The position numbers were made by a program, and so were the translations under genes. Shown piece after piece: positions 3-7,939 of a DNA stretch of 64,000 nucleotides; position 1 is the first letter of the stretch; each line of letters opens with the position of its first letter. Below the pieces are notes generated by a model that was given only the letters and a program-made list of their open reading frames with translations, made no database searches and was not told the DNA's origin. Origin of the DNA: Aggregatimonas sangjinii (GTDB lineage: Bacteria > Bacteroidota > Bacteroidia > Flavobacteriales > Flavobacteriaceae). The stretch is taken from the NCBI RefSeq assembly GCF_005943945.1, contig NZ_CP040710.1, forward strand, positions 1,871,001 to 1,935,000, given 5' to 3'.

Positions 3-1598
3 AATCTGGAAATCAATTCGTTGGGCGTTACGATCCGAGCCGTACAAAAGCAAATGGCCGAAGCCAATAATGCCCCGGAAAAAGAACAGGGTGAGATTAC
101 CATCAAATTCGACGCCCCTATCACCACTACCCTGGAATTGACCTTATCGTACGAGGTGGACAATGCCGGTTGGATACCGAACTACGAGTTCAAATCAAAA
201 GACATCAATTCACCCTTGACTTTGGCCTACAAAGCGCATGTCTACCAAAAAACGGGCACGAATTGGGACAATGTAAAGGTTACCCTCTCTACCGGAAACC
301 CGACTATCAATGTGGCCAAGCCCAACTTGGGAACGAAATATTTGAATTTTACGAACGGGTATCAAAATACAAGCACTAACAGTATAAAAAAGCGGAAATA
401 TATGTACAATCCGACTGTAAAAGAAGTTTCTGGGGTCGTTTTGGATCAATCCGGAGCTCCTTTGGCGGGAGCCAATGTATTGGTCAAAGGGACTACAACG
501 GGTACGACTACGGATTTTGATGGGCACTATTCCCTAAAGGTGCAACACGGGCAGGAATTGGTGATATCGTACATAGGTTTCCGTTCTGAAGTGCTCCCGA
601 TTTACTCATCGGTAATGAACATAGGCCTGGAGGAGGATGCGTCGGCCCTTGAGGAAGTTGTTGTAACTGGATATGGCTCTAAAAAGCGGAACTTCACAAC
701 CGGGTCCGTGAGTTCCGTATCTACTGAACGACTTTTACAGGGAAGGGCCGCAGGGGTAGAAATTCAAGGTACTTCATCGATAAAAGGGAAATCTTATATT
801 TCCCCTTCACAATTGCCACTATATGTGGTGGATGGCGTTATTGTCGAGGGTTTTGTGGATGGCGATCTGGACATGGACGAAATACAATCCGTAAAGGTAC
901 TAAAAGGCTCAAACGCCAATGCCCTTTATGGATATAATGGAGCAAAGGAAATCGTGGTGATTACAACCAAGAAGAGCACTATCCAGGACGATATTACCAA
1001 CACCAAATTCGTCATCAAAAAGCCGTATTCCATTGTTTCTGATGGCGATATTACCGCCATCGAAATCAACACCTTCACCTTAAACGCCAAATACGAATAC
1101 CTTGCGGTCCCCATTGTCAACGAAAATGTGTTCCTAACAACCACTTTCACTGATTGGGAGCAATACAATTTACTGCCCGGTGAAGCCAGTGTTTATTTTA
1201 AAGGCACCTATGCGGGAAAAACGACCATCGACCCTTACACCACCAAAAAGGAGATGACGGTTTCCTTGGGAATCGACCCTAATATTACGGTGACCAGAAA
1301 GCAAGACAGGAACTTTAAGAGCAAATCGTTTACCGGCAGCAATCGTATCCTGGACAAAACCTACGATTTGGAAATCAAGAACAACAAGGCCAAAACCGTC
1401 AACATCAGATTAATGGATAGAATTCCTATTTCCCAAAACAAGGATATCAAGGTAGACGATGTGGTGACAAACGATGCGGAATACGATAAAAAGACCGGCT
1501 TATTGACCTGGAAACTGCACTTGGCCGGTAATGAAGGCCTTACAAAGCGTTTTTCCTTTCAACTAAGGTACCCAAAATACAAGCGCATTTCACTTTAG
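3..1598 (+). CDS. DUF4139 (MuiA-like) protein with inserted SusC-like regulatory and plug segment, 5' partial
   Basis: The reading frame is open from the first bases of the window, so the N-terminus lies upstream; 531 residues are visible. The first ~130 and last ~200 visible residues are the beta-rich DUF4139 region of the 'mucoidy inhibitor A' family (for example GWIPNYEFKS early and the KNNKAKTVNIRLMDRIP segment late). Between them sits a carboxypeptidase-regulatory-like domain (VSGVVLDQSGAPLAGANVLV) followed by EEVVVTGYGSKKRN and a TonB-plug-like stretch ending in LYGYNGAKEIVVITTKK. That order is the N-terminal order of SusC/RagA receptors, but no 22-strand barrel follows. The function of the family is not established; an envelope or surface role is inferred. 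The stop is TAG. Confidence 0.8.
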   Translation, partial: NLEINSLGVTIRAVQKQMAEANNAPEKEQGEITIKFDAPITTTLELTLSYEVDNAGWIPNYEFKSKDINSPLTLAYKAHVYQKTGTNWDNVKVTLSTGNPTINVAKPNLGTKYLNFTNGYQNTSTNSIKKRKYMYNPTVKEVSGVVLDQSGAPLAGANVLVKGTTTGTTTDFDGHYSLKVQHGQELVISYIGFRSEVLPIYSSVMNIGLEEDASALEEVVVTGYGSKKRNFTTGSVSSVSTERLLQGRAAGVEIQGTSSIKGKSYISPSQLPLYVVDGVIVEGFVDGDLDMDEIQSVKVLKGSNANALYGYNGAKEIVVITTKKSTIQDDITNTKFVIKKPYSIVSDGDITAIEINTFTLNAKYEYLAVPIVNENVFLTTTFTDWEQYNLLPGEASVYFKGTYAGKTTIDPYTTKKEMTVSLGIDPNITVTRKQDRNFKSKSFTGSNRILDKTYDLEIKNNKAKTVNIRLMDRIPISQNKDIKVDDVVTNDAEYDKKTGLLTWKLHLAGNEGLTKRFSFQLRYPKYKRISL

Positions 1599-1695: not shown

Positions 1696-2736
1696 CTAGA
1701 GCGTGGCCAATCTACTATTAAACAAATAATCCGGGTACATCTTCTTGTAATTCACTTTCTTTTCGATGGATTTAATAACCTCGGTAGCAAAGTCGACTTC
1801 GTACATTTTGCCCATCATATTTAGTCCACCTGGACTAAATACATTGATTTCCATTAATTTATCGCCCACAATATCGATTCCCACTAAGAACATCCCGTCC
1901 TGAACCAATTTAGGACGGACGATTTCGGCCAGTTCGAGTATTTGATCGGTGATTTTCTTTCCCTCCGTTGTACCCCCTGCATGTACGTTACTGCGGATGT
2001 CCCCCTCGGCATTCACCCGTTGCAGCATCGCATATTTACCATCCGATTGCAAGGGCTCCCCGTTCATTAAGAAGAGGCGGGTATCCCCACCAGTAGCGTC
2101 CGGTAAATATTCTTGGGCAATAACATAACCGTCCCGGCTGATGGCATCGATGGTCTGGGAGAGGTTATGCACATTATTTTTATCCATCATAAAAACATTC
2201 GTACCACCCGAACCCTGCAAGGGTTTTAAAATCATCTTTTGCTTCTGTTGTTTAAAGAAATCCTCGATTTCCTTATGATCTCTGGTAATCACCGTCTTGG
2301 GCCGTAAAATTTCCGGAAAATGCTGAAAGTACATTTTATTGACCGCTCCGGCGAGACTGCTCGGATGATTTAATACCAATACCCCGTCCCGTTCCGCGAT
2401 TTCACCAAATACAAAAGCGGCGTTCTGCGCCCATTCCCGATCATTGATTTCATCGGCAGGATTATTTCTCAAAAACAATACGTCTAAATCCTTGGAGTTA
2501 ATTCTTTGAAATTCTTCTTTCTGGACCGCCTGGAAATACGTTTCCTGAGCGTCATAAGATTTGCCGCTTATACTTTTGCAACGCGCAGACATGTGCCCAC
2601 CTGAGGTATAGGCCAATTCCCCTACTCCAATGAAAAATACTTCATGCTCCCGTTTATATGCCGCATACCCTAATCCCGGGGTCGTGTAACTTGGTTTTTC
2701 CGTGTCATGGTCGTTGATGATAAAAGCAATTTTCAT
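1696..2736 (-). CDS. GshB-like ATP-grasp ligase (first of two)
   Basis: 346-residue protein of the glutathione-synthetase-like ATP-grasp superfamily, whose members join a carboxylate to an amine through an acyl phosphate. The N-terminal pre-ATP-grasp domain begins MKIAFIINDHD. ATP-grasp features are MILKPLQGSGGTNVF (phosphate-binding loop), DTRLFLMNGEP, RSNVHAGGT and the metal-binding end VGIDIVGDKLMEINVFSPGG. I start at the ATG at 2736 because the domain begins there; an upstream ATG at 2790 adds 18 unlikely residues. It lies about 100 bp downstream of the DUF1704 gene and closes a four-gene minus-strand cluster that also holds a second, divergent GshB-like ligase. No GshA-type glutamate-cysteine ligase is in the window, so true glutathione synthesis is doubtful; the substrate is unknown. 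Confidence 0.85.
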   Translation of the reverse strand: MKIAFIINDHDTEKPSYTTPGLGYAAYKREHEVFFIGVGELAYTSGGHMSARCKSISGKSYDAQETYFQAVQKEEFQRINSKDLDVLFLRNNPADEINDREWAQNAAFVFGEIAERDGVLVLNHPSSLAGAVNKMYFQHFPEILRPKTVITRDHKEIEDFFKQQKQKMILKPLQGSGGTNVFMMDKNNVHNLSQTIDAISRDGYVIAQEYLPDATGGDTRLFLMNGEPLQSDGKYAMLQRVNAEGDIRSNVHAGGTTEGKKITDQILELAEIVRPKLVQDGMFLVGIDIVGDKLMEINVFSPGGLNMMGKMYEVDFATEVIKSIEKKVNYKKMYPDYLFNSRLATL

Positions 2737-2835
2737 AGTTTTCCGTATTTGTTTTAACGCGATAGAAGATAGGCAGATAAAAAGATCCATATCCCTTTAA
2801 TCTTAGCTCATTCCAAATATTTTCCTGTTCTAAGT

Positions 2836-4659
2836 TCAATCGAGGAGATCGGTCACCGATATACCCTCGGACACCTTCTTCAAACGTTTCTTGACAGCGT
2901 CCCGTTCTAAAAATCGAGGTAGTGTTGGATACTTCAATACCCCTCGGTGTAACAGCTCTTCTATCAATTCAACATGGGTGATGTTGAATTTGCCTGTATA
3001 TAGGGTTTCCAATTTGCCTCCTTGCCCGAGATACTCCAATACATTCATTAGGCCGGCCAGATAAACCGCATCCTTAACGAGACCGCCCCCACGATAGACC
3101 CGCATGGTAATGTAATAAGCCACTCGATCCGGAAAATTGTGTTGCTCCCGAAGCAATTCGAACGTTTTAATAAAATCGACGCCGCTTACCAATGAATCGA
3201 CCGCTACGACCCTCGCAGCAAGCAGGCGCATTCTGTTGACGGTCAAACCGTCGACCAGATATTCGGCCAGCACGGCCAGTCCCTCTTGAAGTTGATCATA
3301 TCCTGCGAAGCCGGCATACATTTGTCTAAGTGGCTGGCCTTTTCCATTGCAATAGGTCAAAATATGTGTCGCGATTTCATGCTGAATGAGTGCATCACAG
3401 CGATCGGCATCCATAGAAAACTGGTCGTTAATCAATAATTTAGTTTTCGAAACCATTATTCCCGCAACGTCCTTCCTGATTTCAAGGGACAACTTCAAAT
3501 CCGGAAATTGCGATTGGTAATAATCCATTTCATCCTTTGCGCGCTCCGCGAATTGGTGGCAATCGAATTTTTTAAGTACTTCCGGATCTTCACCCGTCGG
3601 ATGCTTTTCCAAAATTTTTCGCCCGGCATGCAAGACTTCCGGGGCAATCTTGCCATACAGGCTCTCTCCTATAAATCGAAAATTATCGGTGCCACGCTCC
3701 TCGAGCATGGTCAGCTGTTTTTCGATTTCGAGGCGTTTGTCCCTTAAGATAAAGGCCAATGTAGGATCTTCGACTTTGTCTAAGGGAATATCGTATAATT
3801 TCCTTTTTTTCTTCTCTGGGTCGATCGTTATCAATCGATAATTGAAAGAGGGATTCTTGGAAAATCCGTTTTTTTCAAATTTTCTCCATTCCGAAGTACT
3901 GTTGACAGGAGTGGTTCGGAGCAAAAAGGACATTCCCTCGCTAATCGTGGCCAACTCGCGATCAGCCTTCAGTGTAATACCGTCTAAATTGGTCTTACCC
4001 AACATAAGATAATGATTAAACGGATTGGTGGTTTGCACGCGTACAAACTCATAGGCGGCCCTTTTGATTACCTCCGAGAATTTGGAATGGAATTTCCGAT
4101 AAAAGAGCGAATAGACCTCGTTTTCCTCTCGACGTTCATATAGCGTTGGCACGGCAATACCGACAACCATGCAAGCCGATTCCTTTGAAACGATACTCCC
4201 CATCAATTCCTCCAAGCGTTGTGGATGACGTTGGGAAGAGTCCACGACCTGCACTGAAGTTTCAGGATAAATTTCCCGCATTTCGGCGAAACCTTTTTCC
4301 AATGCGGAAATGGTAGCCGGAATCTTATCATCCTGACAATGAATGACAAATTCGCTCTGGTGGTTGGCACGCAAGGGCCAACTTTCCAATATAAGAAAGG
4401 CTTTTAACTTTTTTGATATCGTTCTAGCGATTTGTTCCAGTAAAACGGTAATATCAATGGAATCCTCAATGATAAGGTACGAAGCCTGTGTTTTTAAAAG
4501 TCCTGAAAAATAAGGGTCTACCTCTTTATAGCGGTAGACACAAATGTAGGGGAGTAATTTATCAATATGTAAAATACCGTCTTTGGGTAATTTTTGGTTG
4601 ACGGTCCGTTCTTCCAATAGTTTCTTGCAGACGCTTTGAACGGTCTTTTTTTGAATCAT
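2836..4659 (-). CDS. DUF1704 'QEGLA' family zinc metallopeptidase-like protein
   Basis: 607-residue protein of the family annotated 'flavohemoglobin expression-modulating QEGLA motif protein' (DUF1704). It carries HEIATH at residues 427-432 (zinc-binding HExxxH) and QEGLA at 458-462, whose Glu is the probable third zinc ligand. The family is homologous to the eukaryotic MATCAP/KIAA0895L tubulin tyrosine carboxypeptidase, so a carboxypeptidase-like activity is a fair inference; the bacterial substrate is unknown. The N-terminal ~200 residues are less conserved and may bind substrate. Its ATG overlaps the stop of the upstream N-formylglutamate amidohydrolase-like gene by four bases (4656-4659), which indicates translational coupling. 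Catalytic residues appear intact. The historic name comes from a genetic effect and says little about its chemistry. Confidence 0.85.
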   Translation of the reverse strand: MIQKKTVQSVCKKLLEERTVNQKLPKDGILHIDKLLPYICVYRYKEVDPYFSGLLKTQASYLIIEDSIDITVLLEQIARTISKKLKAFLILESWPLRANHQSEFVIHCQDDKIPATISALEKGFAEMREIYPETSVQVVDSSQRHPQRLEELMGSIVSKESACMVVGIAVPTLYERREENEVYSLFYRKFHSKFSEVIKRAAYEFVRVQTTNPFNHYLMLGKTNLDGITLKADRELATISEGMSFLLRTTPVNSTSEWRKFEKNGFSKNPSFNYRLITIDPEKKKRKLYDIPLDKVEDPTLAFILRDKRLEIEKQLTMLEERGTDNFRFIGESLYGKIAPEVLHAGRKILEKHPTGEDPEVLKKFDCHQFAERAKDEMDYYQSQFPDLKLSLEIRKDVAGIMVSKTKLLINDQFSMDADRCDALIQHEIATHILTYCNGKGQPLRQMYAGFAGYDQLQEGLAVLAEYLVDGLTVNRMRLLAARVVAVDSLVSGVDFIKTFELLREQHNFPDRVAYYITMRVYRGGGLVKDAVYLAGLMNVLEYLGQGGKLETLYTGKFNITHVELIEELLHRGVLKYPTLPRFLERDAVKKRLKKVSEGISVTDLLD

Positions 4660-5483
4660 GGGGTCTTTTCGCTGAATTCCTTGACTTGTAAAGGTATCAA
4701 TTCTTTTAACTGTTTTTCAACCGCGGCGATTACTTCTGGGAAAAGAATTCCGGTCATCTCATCACAATATACTTTTGAGATTTCAGTAGCCAGTACCAAG
4801 GTATTACCAAAATTTTGTGTGATGTATTTCAAGAAATACCCATTGCCCTGAAAAGTATCGTTGATTTTAGAAGTGGATGCAATGCCATTCGGTAGCCGTA
4901 TCCTGCCTAATTTACTACTCCATGATGCCGCAAGCTCACCGAACCTGTCATTATCGATATTTGCGGTTCCAAGGTTCCATACGGGCACTTCCCGTTCCCA
5001 ACGCTTCCAGTTGTAACTATGCATATCAAAAACTAGGGCTTTGCCATGAATTTTTTCGATTTGCCGGACCAAGGCATCTACAACTCGGTAGAAATCGGAA
5101 TGCTTTTGTAGACTGAGTCGACGTTCGGCCTCGGGTAAAGGCTTTTTCCAGAGTTGTTTGCCCCAAGCATCCGAATAAATGGCGGTTTCCGGAGCCCGAT
5201 TCAAATCATATTCGAAGCGACTGTCACAGCCCGCTATAACAACGGGGTGCGATTGTACCATTTGTTTGGTGCAGGGGTCTTCTTCATACCATCGCTCGTA
5301 TTCGGTATGTAGGCAATTTTCCCAAAGTGACCGCCTGAATTGGTGTCCGTCGTGCACCGCCCCACAGATATAAGGCGCATATTCCGCAATTTTCAGGGTA
5401 AAGGAATAATCTTCGGAAACCGCTTCAAAGGGGATTTCGGATTCAATGTTTGAAATTATTCGTTCTACGGAAAGCCTATGCAT
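4656..5483 (-). CDS. N-formylglutamate amidohydrolase-like protein
   Basis: 275-residue member of the N-formylglutamate amidohydrolase (FGase) family, zinc-dependent hydrolases related in fold to M14 carboxypeptidases. Visible family features are SHPVVIAGCDSRFEYDLNRA, AVHDGHQFRRS near the N-terminus and FDMHSYNWKR, which supply the His, Asp and Glu ligands. In histidine catabolism FGase deformylates N-formyl-glutamate, but no hut genes are present here. Its setting between ATP-grasp ligases and a DUF1704 peptidase suggests a different amide or peptide substrate. The start at 5483 overlaps the end of the upstream ligase gene by 8 bp. A longer frame to 5555 exists but runs into that gene. The gene overlaps DUF1704 by 4 bp downstream. 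Confidence 0.82.
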   Translation of the reverse strand: MHRLSVERIISNIESEIPFEAVSEDYSFTLKIAEYAPYICGAVHDGHQFRRSLWENCLHTEYERWYEEDPCTKQMVQSHPVVIAGCDSRFEYDLNRAPETAIYSDAWGKQLWKKPLPEAERRLSLQKHSDFYRVVDALVRQIEKIHGKALVFDMHSYNWKRWEREVPVWNLGTANIDNDRFGELAASWSSKLGRIRLPNGIASTSKINDTFQGNGYFLKYITQNFGNTLVLATEISKVYCDEMTGILFPEVIAAVEKQLKELIPLQVKEFSEKTP

Positions 5484-6507
5484 TTTCAACTTCGTTTCGA
5501 AGCCTAGAGCGTCTGTCGAAGGCCTGTAATTTATCCAATACCTTGCTTTCCACAAAATCGATGACTTTGGATTGTATTTTCGTCTTATAGACCTTGTTCA
5601 TATAGGTAATGCCGCCCGGAGACATCACGTTTACTTCGACCAGTTTACCACCGATGACATCGATTCCCACAAAAAACAAACCATCCTTGACCAATTTTGG
5701 GCCGATTTGTTTGCAAAGCGCTTTTTCAGACTTGGTTAAACTATGCTTGGCCACCGTGCCACCAGCAGAAACATTCGACCGATGGTCATCAGTTCCCGGT
5801 ATGCGTTTCATCGCCCCGATGGGCTCCCCGTTTAATAATAAAACACGAACATCGCCTTGGTCTGCACCTTCAATATATTCTTGAAGTATCACGTAATTAG
5901 ACGTTCCATCTGAATTACTTATGTAAAAATCAAGAAGTGACTGTATACTTGTCATCGCCGACTTTTCAATTAAGATGACACCCGAGCCGCCATATCCGTT
6001 CAGGGGCTTTAATATCATCTTATCGGTTTTCGACTCCTTAATTTGTTTGATTAAGTGGTTTTTGTTCTTCGATACATGTGTGGCCGGGATGATATTGCTA
6101 TGCGAATCCCCAAAGGCGGCCGTGTATAATTTATTATTCGCCTCACGAATACCTTGCAAGGAATTCATGATGAAAACGTCGTCCTTAACGGAATCCAAGA
6201 AATTCAGCATAATCGGATCCAACGGTGGGTTGGCTCTCATGAAGATTACGTCAAATCCGGCCAAAGGAAGCATTTCCTCGCGCAAGCTCGCCTGTTTATA
6301 GAATGATTTTAGACTACTCGAAACCTTGTCGGCACGATTGATTACGGTACAGAACGCATTCGTGACGCTGTTGCGAATAGTAAGATTCGCAGGGGAGCAA
6401 AGTGCCACGCCATGACCTCTTCTAAAGCATTCGTGTATCAACGCCAAACTGGTATCGGTTTCAGGAACGATTTCTTCCCATGGATACATTAAAAAACAGA
6501 TATTCAT
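5476..6507 (-). CDS. GshB-like ATP-grasp ligase (second, first gene of the cluster)
   Basis: 343-residue ATP-grasp protein that leads the cluster. It starts MNICFLMYPWEEI; the N-terminal domain contains FDVIFMRANPPLD, the equivalent of LDVLFLRNNPADE in the companion ligase at 1696-2736. ATP-grasp motifs are KMILKPLNGYGGSGVIL, EYIEGADQGDVRVLLLNGEP, HRSNVSAGG and VGIDVIGGKLVEVNVMSPGG. The two ligases are clearly paralogous but well diverged, which suggests two successive or alternative ligations. The product is probably cytoplasmic. No canonical TAnnTTTG box is evident upstream (6508-6613), so the promoter is unassigned. Overlap with the next gene (8 bp) argues for one transcript. Confidence 0.85.
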   Translation of the reverse strand: MNICFLMYPWEEIVPETDTSLALIHECFRRGHGVALCSPANLTIRNSVTNAFCTVINRADKVSSSLKSFYKQASLREEMLPLAGFDVIFMRANPPLDPIMLNFLDSVKDDVFIMNSLQGIREANNKLYTAAFGDSHSNIIPATHVSKNKNHLIKQIKESKTDKMILKPLNGYGGSGVILIEKSAMTSIQSLLDFYISNSDGTSNYVILQEYIEGADQGDVRVLLLNGEPIGAMKRIPGTDDHRSNVSAGGTVAKHSLTKSEKALCKQIGPKLVKDGLFFVGIDVIGGKLVEVNVMSPGGITYMNKVYKTKIQSKVIDFVESKVLDKLQAFDRRSRLRNEVENA

Positions 6508-6613: not shown

Positions 6614-7939
6614 CTACTTCACTTGTTCATAATTATCGTCCCAGTTCTTTACCTTTGGCTTACCGAATTTACCTACCGATTTGGCGACCATCATGGCTAC
6701 CGTGGCATCACCGGTGACGTTCACCACCGTACGGCACATGTCTAACGGCCGATCAACGGCAAAAATCAGGGCAAGGCCGATTGCCAACTTATCTGGTGGA
6801 AAACCAATCGATTCCAATACGATGACCAACATGACCATACCGGCGCCGGGCACAGCGGCCGAACCAATGGAAGCCAATAAGGCGGTCAAAACAATAGTCA
6901 ATTGGTCTCCGAAAGTCAAGTCAAATCCCAAAGCTTGGGATATAAATACGGCAGCGACGCCTTGATACAGGCTGGTACCATCCATATTAATCGTCGCCCC
7001 TACCGGCAATACAAAACTTGAAACTTCTTTGTCGACACCAATATGTTCCTCTACCCTTTCCATGGTTACGGGTAATGTAGCCGCACTTGAGCTGGTCGAG
7101 AAGGCCAAAAGTTGTGCCGGGGCCATTTTGCTCAAAAAGGAAAGCGGATTGTAGCGCGTAAAAGTCGAAACGACGAGACTGTAAAATACGATCATCAACA
7201 GAAGCCCCAAAAGTACGACCCCCGCATATTTGAGCAGGGCCAATAACAAGTCGGGGTCTCCCGAAGAAACGACCACGTTGGCCAATAAGGCAAAAACGGC
7301 CACAGGGGCGGTAAGCATGATCAAATCGACCATTTTTAGCACTACGTCGTTCAGGGCGTCAAAAAAATCCTTTAAGGGCTTGGCACGCTCCTCGCCGATC
7401 AAGAGCATTGAAATACCCAGGAAGATGGTGAAAAAGATAACTTGGAGCATTAAACTATTATCCCCAAGCGCGGCAAAAGCATTGTCGGGTACCATTTCTT
7501 CCAGAAAGTTCAGTGGACCTGCATCTTTTTGACGGGAGGCTTCTTCCAATTTCGAAGTAACGCCACTGTCATTGGAATAGGTTTCTGTTAAGGTGGCAAT
7601 GGTATCTTCGGATATGCCCTCACCTGGCTGCATGACATTGACCAGCAGTAGGCCAATGGTAATGGCCACAACGGTAGTACAGATGTAGATGGCAATGGTT
7701 CGCAAACCGATGTTCCGGAATTTGGAGATGTCCTTTAAATCGGAAATCCCTTTGACAAGTGAAGCCAGAATCAGAGGAATCGCAATAAGTTTGAGCAATT
7801 TGACGAAAATGGTTCCGATGGGTTGTATCCAATCCGTAACGAAATCCTTTCCCCATTCGATAAAGGTCATTCCATAGCCGAAAAGAAGGCCAACGACCAT
7901 TCCGATAAGGATTTGCCAGTGCAATTCCAGTTTCTTCAT
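6614..7939 (-). CDS. Dicarboxylate/amino-acid:cation symporter (DAACS family)
   Basis: 441-residue multipass inner-membrane carrier of the DAACS (GltP/DctA) family, which imports glutamate, aspartate or C4-dicarboxylates with Na+ or H+. Diagnostic features are the serine-rich re-entrant loop (AFSTSSSAATLPVTME), the NMDG motif (ATINMDGTSLYQG), and the late segment GAAVPGAG-like (IGSAAVPGAGMVMLVIVL) plus DRPLDMCRTVVNVTGD. Length is normal for the family. About 106 bp separate it from the start of the ATP-grasp cluster on the same strand, so co-transcription is possible and would supply glutamate or aspartate to the ligases; this is inference. The exact substrate cannot be told from sequence. 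Confidence 0.93.
   Translation of the reverse strand: MKKLELHWQILIGMVVGLLFGYGMTFIEWGKDFVTDWIQPIGTIFVKLLKLIAIPLILASLVKGISDLKDISKFRNIGLRTIAIYICTTVVAITIGLLLVNVMQPGEGISEDTIATLTETYSNDSGVTSKLEEASRQKDAGPLNFLEEMVPDNAFAALGDNSLMLQVIFFTIFLGISMLLIGEERAKPLKDFFDALNDVVLKMVDLIMLTAPVAVFALLANVVVSSGDPDLLLALLKYAGVVLLGLLLMIVFYSLVVSTFTRYNPLSFLSKMAPAQLLAFSTSSSAATLPVTMERVEEHIGVDKEVSSFVLPVGATINMDGTSLYQGVAAVFISQALGFDLTFGDQLTIVLTALLASIGSAAVPGAGMVMLVIVLESIGFPPDKLAIGLALIFAVDRPLDMCRTVVNVTGDATVAMMVAKSVGKFGKPKVKNWDDNYEQVK

Follow-up and report, generated by a model that had tools for sequence, protein, structure and literature searches.

The stretch of DNA analysed here (the window: 64,000 nucleotides of Aggregatimonas sangjinii, contig NZ_CP040710.1, positions 1,871,001 to 1,935,000 of the forward strand) carries a four-gene cassette built on a conserved bacterial unit, in which one GshB-like ATP-grasp ligase of family NF009110 and one metallopeptidase of the MATCAP (DUF1704/QEGLA) family are encoded with one N-formylglutamate amidohydrolase-like hydrolase (FGase), the last being sometimes replaced by a relative of AstE/AspA. 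The association of ligase and MATCAP goes beyond chance. We give about an even chance to the reading that the cassette forms and cleaves amide bonds on a single class of acidic substrates, reversibly ligating an amino acid to an acceptor that is an acidic acyl compound or peptide. An original prediction, made from the letters of the window, had already proposed a pathway that adds and removes a residue, and a ligase encoded next to two amide hydrolases does suggest both activities. The genes, domains and sites concerned are the following (aa, amino acids):

5476-6507, minus strand: LigA, GshB-like ATP-grasp ligase of the module-I clade, 343 aa (NF009110, 463.9 bits)
4656-5483, minus strand: FGase-like metal hydrolase of M14 fold, 275 aa from the ATG (PF05013, 55.6 bits)
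2836-4659, minus strand: long MATCAP (DUF1704/QEGLA) metallopeptidase, 607 aa (PF08014, 316.7 bits)
4024-4659, minus strand: N-terminal domain of MATCAP, about residues 1-212, FGase-related and without conserved histidines, a putative pseudo-FGase (hhalign and Foldseek)
2860-3972, minus strand: catalytic domain of MATCAP, about residues 230-600 (Pfam match 260-597 and alignment)
3364-3381, minus strand: HExxxH metal site of MATCAP (HEIATH; H427, E428, H432; alignment)
3274-3288, minus strand: QEGLA motif of MATCAP with the third metal ligand, E459 (alignment)
1696-2736, minus strand: LigB, GshB-like ATP-grasp ligase of the module-II clade, 346 aa from an inner ATG (NF009110, 433.0 bits)

The predicted positions of the four genes and their overlaps, 8 bp between LigA and FGase (the latter taken from its ATG) and 4 bp between FGase and MATCAP, were all reproduced from the list of open reading frames (ORFs), in which the FGase ORF opens further upstream with a TTG at 5555 and the LigB ORF runs to 2790, upstream of the inner ATG. 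The families assigned to them, namely a DUF1704 HExxxH/QEGLA peptidase, GshB-like ligases and an FGase, were borne out by Pfam and NCBIfam scores (cut-offs of 408 bits for NF009110 and 27 bits for PF08014); in addition, the Pfam GSH-S_ATP domain scored 179 and 184 bits in the two ligases, both of which also contain the GSH-S_N domain.

Joint presence and gene order across bacteria

In a set of 60 related genomes that counts in the window's own, MATCAP was found in 23, and an NF009110 ligase of at least 200 bits occurred in exactly these 23 and in none of the other 37. The ligase score reached at least 336 bits in 22 of these genomes, the remaining one (G024) having a fragment of 201 bits at the end of a contig, and all further ligase matches in this set were RimK-like pieces below 100 bits; FGase was present in 24 genomes of the set. 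Sampling 198 Bacteroidota genomes evenly gave the same picture, with MATCAP in 12 and a ligase of at least 390 bits in 11 of these 12 but in none of the 186 others, two of which (G250 and G134) yielded ligase matches of about 200 bits. The exception, G242, encodes a divergent MATCAP of 424 aa (L154) with no ligase nearby.

A wide profile search of one genome per species returned at least 580 relatives, of which the best 80 named loci were analysed. By their titles, these loci belong to Bacteroidota, Calditrichaeota, several classes of Proteobacteria, Planctomycetota, Verrucomicrobia, Kiritimatiellae, Gemmatimonadota, Acidobacteriota, Poribacteria and an Acidimicrobiales. The ligase was present in 79 of the 80, the sole miss (L073) ending at a contig edge, and FGase in 66; the order FGase-MATCAP-ligase was kept in 53 of the 71 loci whose records extend far enough in both directions, with median intergenic gaps within the operon of -4 bp (n = 54) and 7 bp (n = 67). 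Three-gene operons of this kind are, for example, annotated on plasmid records of Mesorhizobium, Roseateles, Sinorhizobium meliloti and Shinella. Joint presence and kept order thus support the coupling of ATP-grasp ligase, MATCAP and FGase that the original prediction had put forward together with conserved co-occurrence and gene order in relatives as its check, and both held for the three-gene unit.

Some loci depart from this unit. An AstE/AspA-like gene stands beside the MATCAP-ligase pair in L041-L044 and L049 and in the named loci L087, L111, L126 and L137, and an asparagine-synthetase-like gene lies directly before the MATCAP-ligase-AstE genes in L041 (L041:6874-8568) and L126. Tandem ligases occur in L117, L119, L132, L134, L095, L097 and L106, with an extra MATCAP in L119, L134 and L095.

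Two modules and the window's chimera

Comparison of 20 neighbourhoods revealed two arrangements of the unit. Module I comprises LigA, FGase and a short MATCAP of about 390 aa, or else LigA and one fused FGase-MATCAP protein (L051, L052, L053 and, in Photobacterium sp. DA100, L146), whereas module II comprises FGase, a long MATCAP and LigB, with a variant in which the AstE/AspA-like gene follows LigB (L041-L044, L049). The ligase tree, which like the other trees was of a quick kind and was flagged for long branches (L051, L050), contains two fully supported clades corresponding to the partners of module I (11 rows) and of module II (38 rows), the LigB clade being that of the ligases which partner long MATCAPs. 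The LigA and FGase of the window are sisters of those in the congener locus L056 (support 96 and 99), and its MATCAP and LigB group within module II, the MATCAP tree holding 40 rows after a motif filter that excluded loci such as L045 and L060. L056 and the window share their flanks, aroC and an SDF symporter gene on one side and a DUF4139 gene on the other; therefore, the long MATCAP and LigB occupy the place of the congeners' short MATCAP. Trees and synteny show that the four-gene form of the window, also found in L045, L046 and L060, is a lineage chimera of a module-I LigA and FGase with a module-II long MATCAP and LigB. A cluster of four genes with two ligases, as originally proposed, is therefore present in the window, but the usual unit has one ligase.

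The two hydrolases

The window MATCAP matches human MATCAP1 (7z5g) by profile with an E of 2.8e-15, and the top Foldseek match of its AlphaFold2 (AF2) model (pLDDT 93.0) is human MATCAP (7z6s, E 7.4e-9), so the suggested kinship of DUF1704 with the animal enzyme is seen in both profile and fold. It falls just short of the QEGLA equivalog TIGR02421 (321.7 against a cut-off of 338.65). The HExxxH/QEGLA motif was intact in 103 of the 104 MATCAP domains examined, a figure to be read with the bias that the 80 named loci were partly found by patterns on this metal motif. The sole exception is a short MATCAP in L057 (L057:8907-10058), which has HEIGVN and QAGL replacing HEIGVH and QEGL and stands without neighbouring LigA and FGase. 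The fourth position of HEIATH in the window MATCAP is an A, and in aligned relatives it is nearly always a G. Human MATCAP kin trim C-terminal tyrosine, glutamate and other residues off tubulin tails (PMC10499314).

The AF2 model of FGase (pLDDT 92.5) has its closest fold in the N-formylglutamate amidohydrolase 2q7s (E 2.0e-12, TM 0.70), followed by the bacterial metallo-carboxypeptidase 4a37 (E 4.9e-5) and, weakly, by CCP5 (8v3p, E 0.021). Four residues that resemble a metal site, H68, D177, H179 and E258 (ORF numbering), are conserved in 66 of 66 rows; a stricter regular expression matched only 40 of 76.

Long MATCAPs have about 220 additional N-terminal residues. By hhalign, this domain matches FGase with a probability of 94.6 and an E of 6.4e-8, whereas seven other profiles from the same loci scored at most 1.0. 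Residues 156-580 of the window MATCAP align to 219-642 of a fused FGase-MATCAP, spanning the domain border, and weaker Foldseek matches of the long MATCAP model include a phage poly-gamma-glutamate hydrolase (E 0.0069) and an N-formylglutamate amidohydrolase (E 0.0076). R43 and E92 are kept in all 89 rows of the domain alignment, chosen by the HExxxH/QEG motif, and conserved histidines are absent from it, whereas FGase keeps H68 and H179. From these profiles and models, we read the N-terminal domain as a putative substrate-binding pseudo-enzyme, that is, a decayed FGase. The AstE-like protein was also considered as a profile homologue of the domain and was rejected at an hhalign probability of 0.4. 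The second Foldseek match to the long MATCAP model is a Colwellia 'putative lipoprotein' (3o0y; 462 columns, E 1.6e-3, rmsd 25), which is perhaps a two-domain relative in another arrangement.

Proposed cycle and alternatives

In the cycle that we propose, the GshB-like ligase would convert the carboxylate of an acyl or peptide acceptor into an acyl phosphate and then join an amino acid to it, as expected from the reaction type of its family; MATCAP, a gluzincin, would remove the C-terminal residue again, by analogy with its tested human relatives; and FGase, or the AstE/AspA relative in one lineage, would cut the conjugate at its base, between acyl group and amino acid, as its fold and conserved residues suggest. 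The fusions of FGase with MATCAP, together with the decayed FGase domain kept on the long MATCAPs, suggest that both hydrolases meet the same substrate. FGase and the AstE/AspA relatives are, as far as known, small-molecule hydrolases that act on small N-acyl amino acids. Because these two interchange in the operon, and because no target gene is linked to it, a protein may be a less likely acceptor than a small acidic acyl-amino acid or a short peptide.

A hint of the conditions of use comes from Photobacterium. The strain Photobacterium sp. DA100 encodes a LigA 59% identical to that of the window, overlapping the FGase-MATCAP fusion (L146). In a study on P. damselae at 1% relative to 3% NaCl, the GshB-annotated gene A0J47_RS17020 was up 38.42-fold and the QEGLA-annotated RS17025, with the neighbouring tag, 27.51-fold (PMC10308900). 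Judging by strain DA100, these low-salt genes probably are this module, being matched by annotation and not by sequence, and the cassette might conceivably have a role in adjustment to osmotic or other stress.

Several points weigh against the proposed cycle. FGase is missing from 14 of the 80 named loci, of which only 4 have an AstE-like gene and some are cut by contig ends, and MATCAP homologues occur with no ligase in view in L154 (G242), in L143 from Pseudoalteromonas and in L144, an annotated piece from Phyllobacterium. In Foldseek, the N-terminal domain resembles FGase only weakly, and this match is mixed in with nucleoside phosphorylases that share the fold class. LigA scores above the glutathione-synthase equivalog NF003573 (283.9 against 272; LigB, at 222.1, is below it), and the P. 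damselae authors treat the induced gene as an ordinary glutathione synthetase (PMC10308900). In the tubulin studies MATCAP works on protein tails, an argument as much for a protein target as for a small one (PMC10499314).

The alternative that survives best, which we still consider improbable, is a protein-tail cycle in which the ligase would extend the C-terminus or a side chain of a host protein, MATCAP would trim the extension and FGase would take the base residue, in the manner of TTL/TTLL, MATCAP and CCP on tubulin. The protein-tail activity of MATCAP kin just cited speaks for it, as do the parallel of three folds with the tubulin cycle (ATP-grasp, MATCAP and an M14-like hydrolase, 4a37 being the better match for the last and CCP5 only a weak one) and the kinship of RimK-type ligases, to which the two cassette ligases score 82.1 and 99.2 bits, missing the TIGR00768 cut-off of 143.4. 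It is opposed by the small-molecule substrates of the FGase and AstE/AspA hydrolases and by the neighbourhoods, in which no conserved target gene was seen beside the operon. The profile of tubulin tyrosine ligase (PF03133) gives LigB 14.0 bits against a cut-off of 20.1 and does not have LigA among its matches; beyond the common fold, the ATP-grasp parallel with TTL drawn in the original prediction is not seen. Taken one step on, the cassette would be a bacterial forerunner of the tubulin-tail cycle, with the same three folds in one operon, reversible C-terminal residues on a bacterial protein, occurrence in many bacterial groups and an osmotic switch; this we regard as a long shot.

Similarly doubtful is a one-way synthesis of a small peptide-like product, such as an osmolyte, a metallophore or a signal, with MATCAP and FGase serving in processing or editing. 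Most loci are without a further biosynthetic gene, and a transporter or regulator recurring across phyla was not found in the clustered neighbourhoods; on the other hand, the tandem ligases and duplicated MATCAPs of some Planctomycetota and others (L117, L119, L132, L134) suggest several ligation steps, and the asparagine-synthetase-like gene ahead of two AstE-type loci (L041, L126) also fits such a synthesis.

Glutathione and histidine pathways

Glutathione synthesis is unlikely as the role of the cassette, and we give very little credence to the possibility that the ligases make plain glutathione or a gamma-Glu-Cys-type thiol beside neighbours placed there by chance. E. coli GshB (1gsa) is the closest solved structure (E 1.3e-40 for LigA and 7.9e-36 for LigB), LigA passes NF003573, and the genome of the window (G000) encodes one GCS2-family carboxylate-amine ligase (PRK13515, 534 bits). 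However, NF009110 fits both ligases far better, both miss TIGR01380 (237.8 and 211.9 against 299.05), and 96 of 100 ligases read SPG[GAT] at the site where GshB reads SPT. GshA (PF04262) was found by profile search in 0 of the 60 genomes of relatives, and the GCS2 family is present in 9 of the 60 but in only 4 of the 23 genomes with the ligase, two of these having it in a separate FGase-GCS2-RLAN cluster. Glutathione would also leave the near-perfect linkage of ligase and MATCAP without an explanation, and it was rejected on these grounds as a full account. The original statement that GshA is lacking is correct for the window and, as PF04262, for all 60 genomes, but the window's genome does hold the GCS2-family ligase. 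The separate cluster, seen in G016 and G023 (L152:3952-7355, L153:4063-7419), encodes an FGase, a GCS2 ligase and an RLAN/ATP-grasp protein and has no MATCAP, its domains having been scanned in L152 only.

The notion that FGase works as HutG in histidine breakdown, with the other genes present by chance, can be set aside almost entirely: its domain is above the Pfam cut-off and the window's genome does degrade histidine, but it misses the HutG equivalog TIGR02017 (13.1 bits against 278.75), it co-travels with MATCAP and the ligase, and it is dispensable for this pathway because a hut operon elsewhere in the genome (hutH, hutI, hutU and hutG in a row, all above cut-off) carries its own formimidoylglutamase (289.6 against 229.15), whose route has no N-formylglutamate step. 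The claim that hut genes are absent therefore applies to the window and not to the genome. The broader claim, that glutathione and histidine pathways fail to explain the cluster, is supported. In addition to hutH, the window's genome has a second gene of the HAL/PAL family (G000:C1:3729557-3730978).

Flanking genes and other candidates

Next to the cassette in the window lies one syntenic neighbour:

6614-7939, minus strand: SDF dicarboxylate/amino-acid symporter (PF00375)

This symporter gene and aroC flank the cassette upstream, and a convergent DUF4139 gene flanks it downstream (window 21-1598, plus strand), the product of which has a carboxypeptidase-regulatory-like domain and a TonB Plug-like stretch inside the DUF4139 match. 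The symporter was rejected as a cassette member, as all 20 of the genomes searched encode it although 12 of these lack MATCAP, and it still adjoins aroC in genomes without the cassette. The cassette is wholly absent from G006, G010 and G020, where the SDF gene is directly followed by a DCC1 gene, and G014 retains, behind SDF, the remains of a ligase N-terminus (83 of 349 positions). A rhodanese gene lies between LigA and FGase in L045 (L045:11316-12137) and L054 (L054:6770-7938), the next gene in L054 being short and matching TerB below the cut-off, and a rhodanese gene remains in L147 (L147:5223-6390) after loss of the cassette.

The small peptide-encoding gene that had been envisaged near the cluster, which would serve as the precursor gene of a graspetide or other RiPP cluster, has no room in the window operon, the gaps being 106, 99 and 97 bp, no systematic search having been made further away or in other loci. 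A defence system was rejected, as none of the four cassette proteins had a PADLOC anti-phage defence match at an E of 0.01. Phage cargo was likewise rejected, PHROGs giving one weak ligase match and the phage collection one record of 27.8%. The latter is a MATCAP-like match in Pseudomonas phage Y1 (OQ572403.1:63503-64540), a record without annotation.

Significance and comparison with known systems

If the proposed cycle is correct, a widespread operon filed under the names of glutathione synthetase, formylglutamate hydrolase and a misleading 'flavohemoglobin' protein would be an undescribed amide-conjugation cycle, and many NF009110-type 'glutathione synthetase' annotations may be wrong. Bacterial MATCAPs would gain a ligase partner and a setting, a 20-year-old DUF would become testable through a three-gene operon of tractable bacteria, and the finding would bear on the origin of the animal tubulin carboxypeptidases. 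A literature search with little subscription content found no published description of the cassette and nothing on an FGase paired with an ATP-grasp ligase.

The nearest known counterpart is the annotated operon of TIGR02421/DUF1704 'flavohemoglobin expression-modulating QEGLA motif protein', NF009110 'glutathione synthetase' and 'N-formylglutamate amidohydrolase', which has the same families in the same order and is known by annotation names only; the window differs from it by the extra ligase and an FGase of the other clade, and by a MATCAP just under the TIGR02421 cut-off. E. coli GshB shares the fold and the ATP-grasp core, but the cassette ligases differ from it in reading SPG[GAT] and not SPT, in having no dedicated GshA and in their linkage to two hydrolases. 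In ribosomal S6 glutamylation by RimK/RimABK, an ATP-grasp amino-acid ligase is likewise partnered with a dedicated protease, but the window ligases miss the RimK-family cut-off and the peptidase has another fold. The FGase-GCS2-RLAN/ATP-grasp cluster of G016 and G023 also places an FGase beside amide ligases, but these belong to other families and MATCAP is absent. Animal MATCAP1/TMCP, together with TTL/TTLL and CCP, shares with the cassette the MATCAP fold, the HExxxH...E site, an ATP-grasp ligase and an M14-fold hydrolase; the two systems differ in that MATCAP identity is 20% (Foldseek), the window ligases are GshB-like and not TTL-like, and the window hydrolase is closest to FGase and not to CCP.

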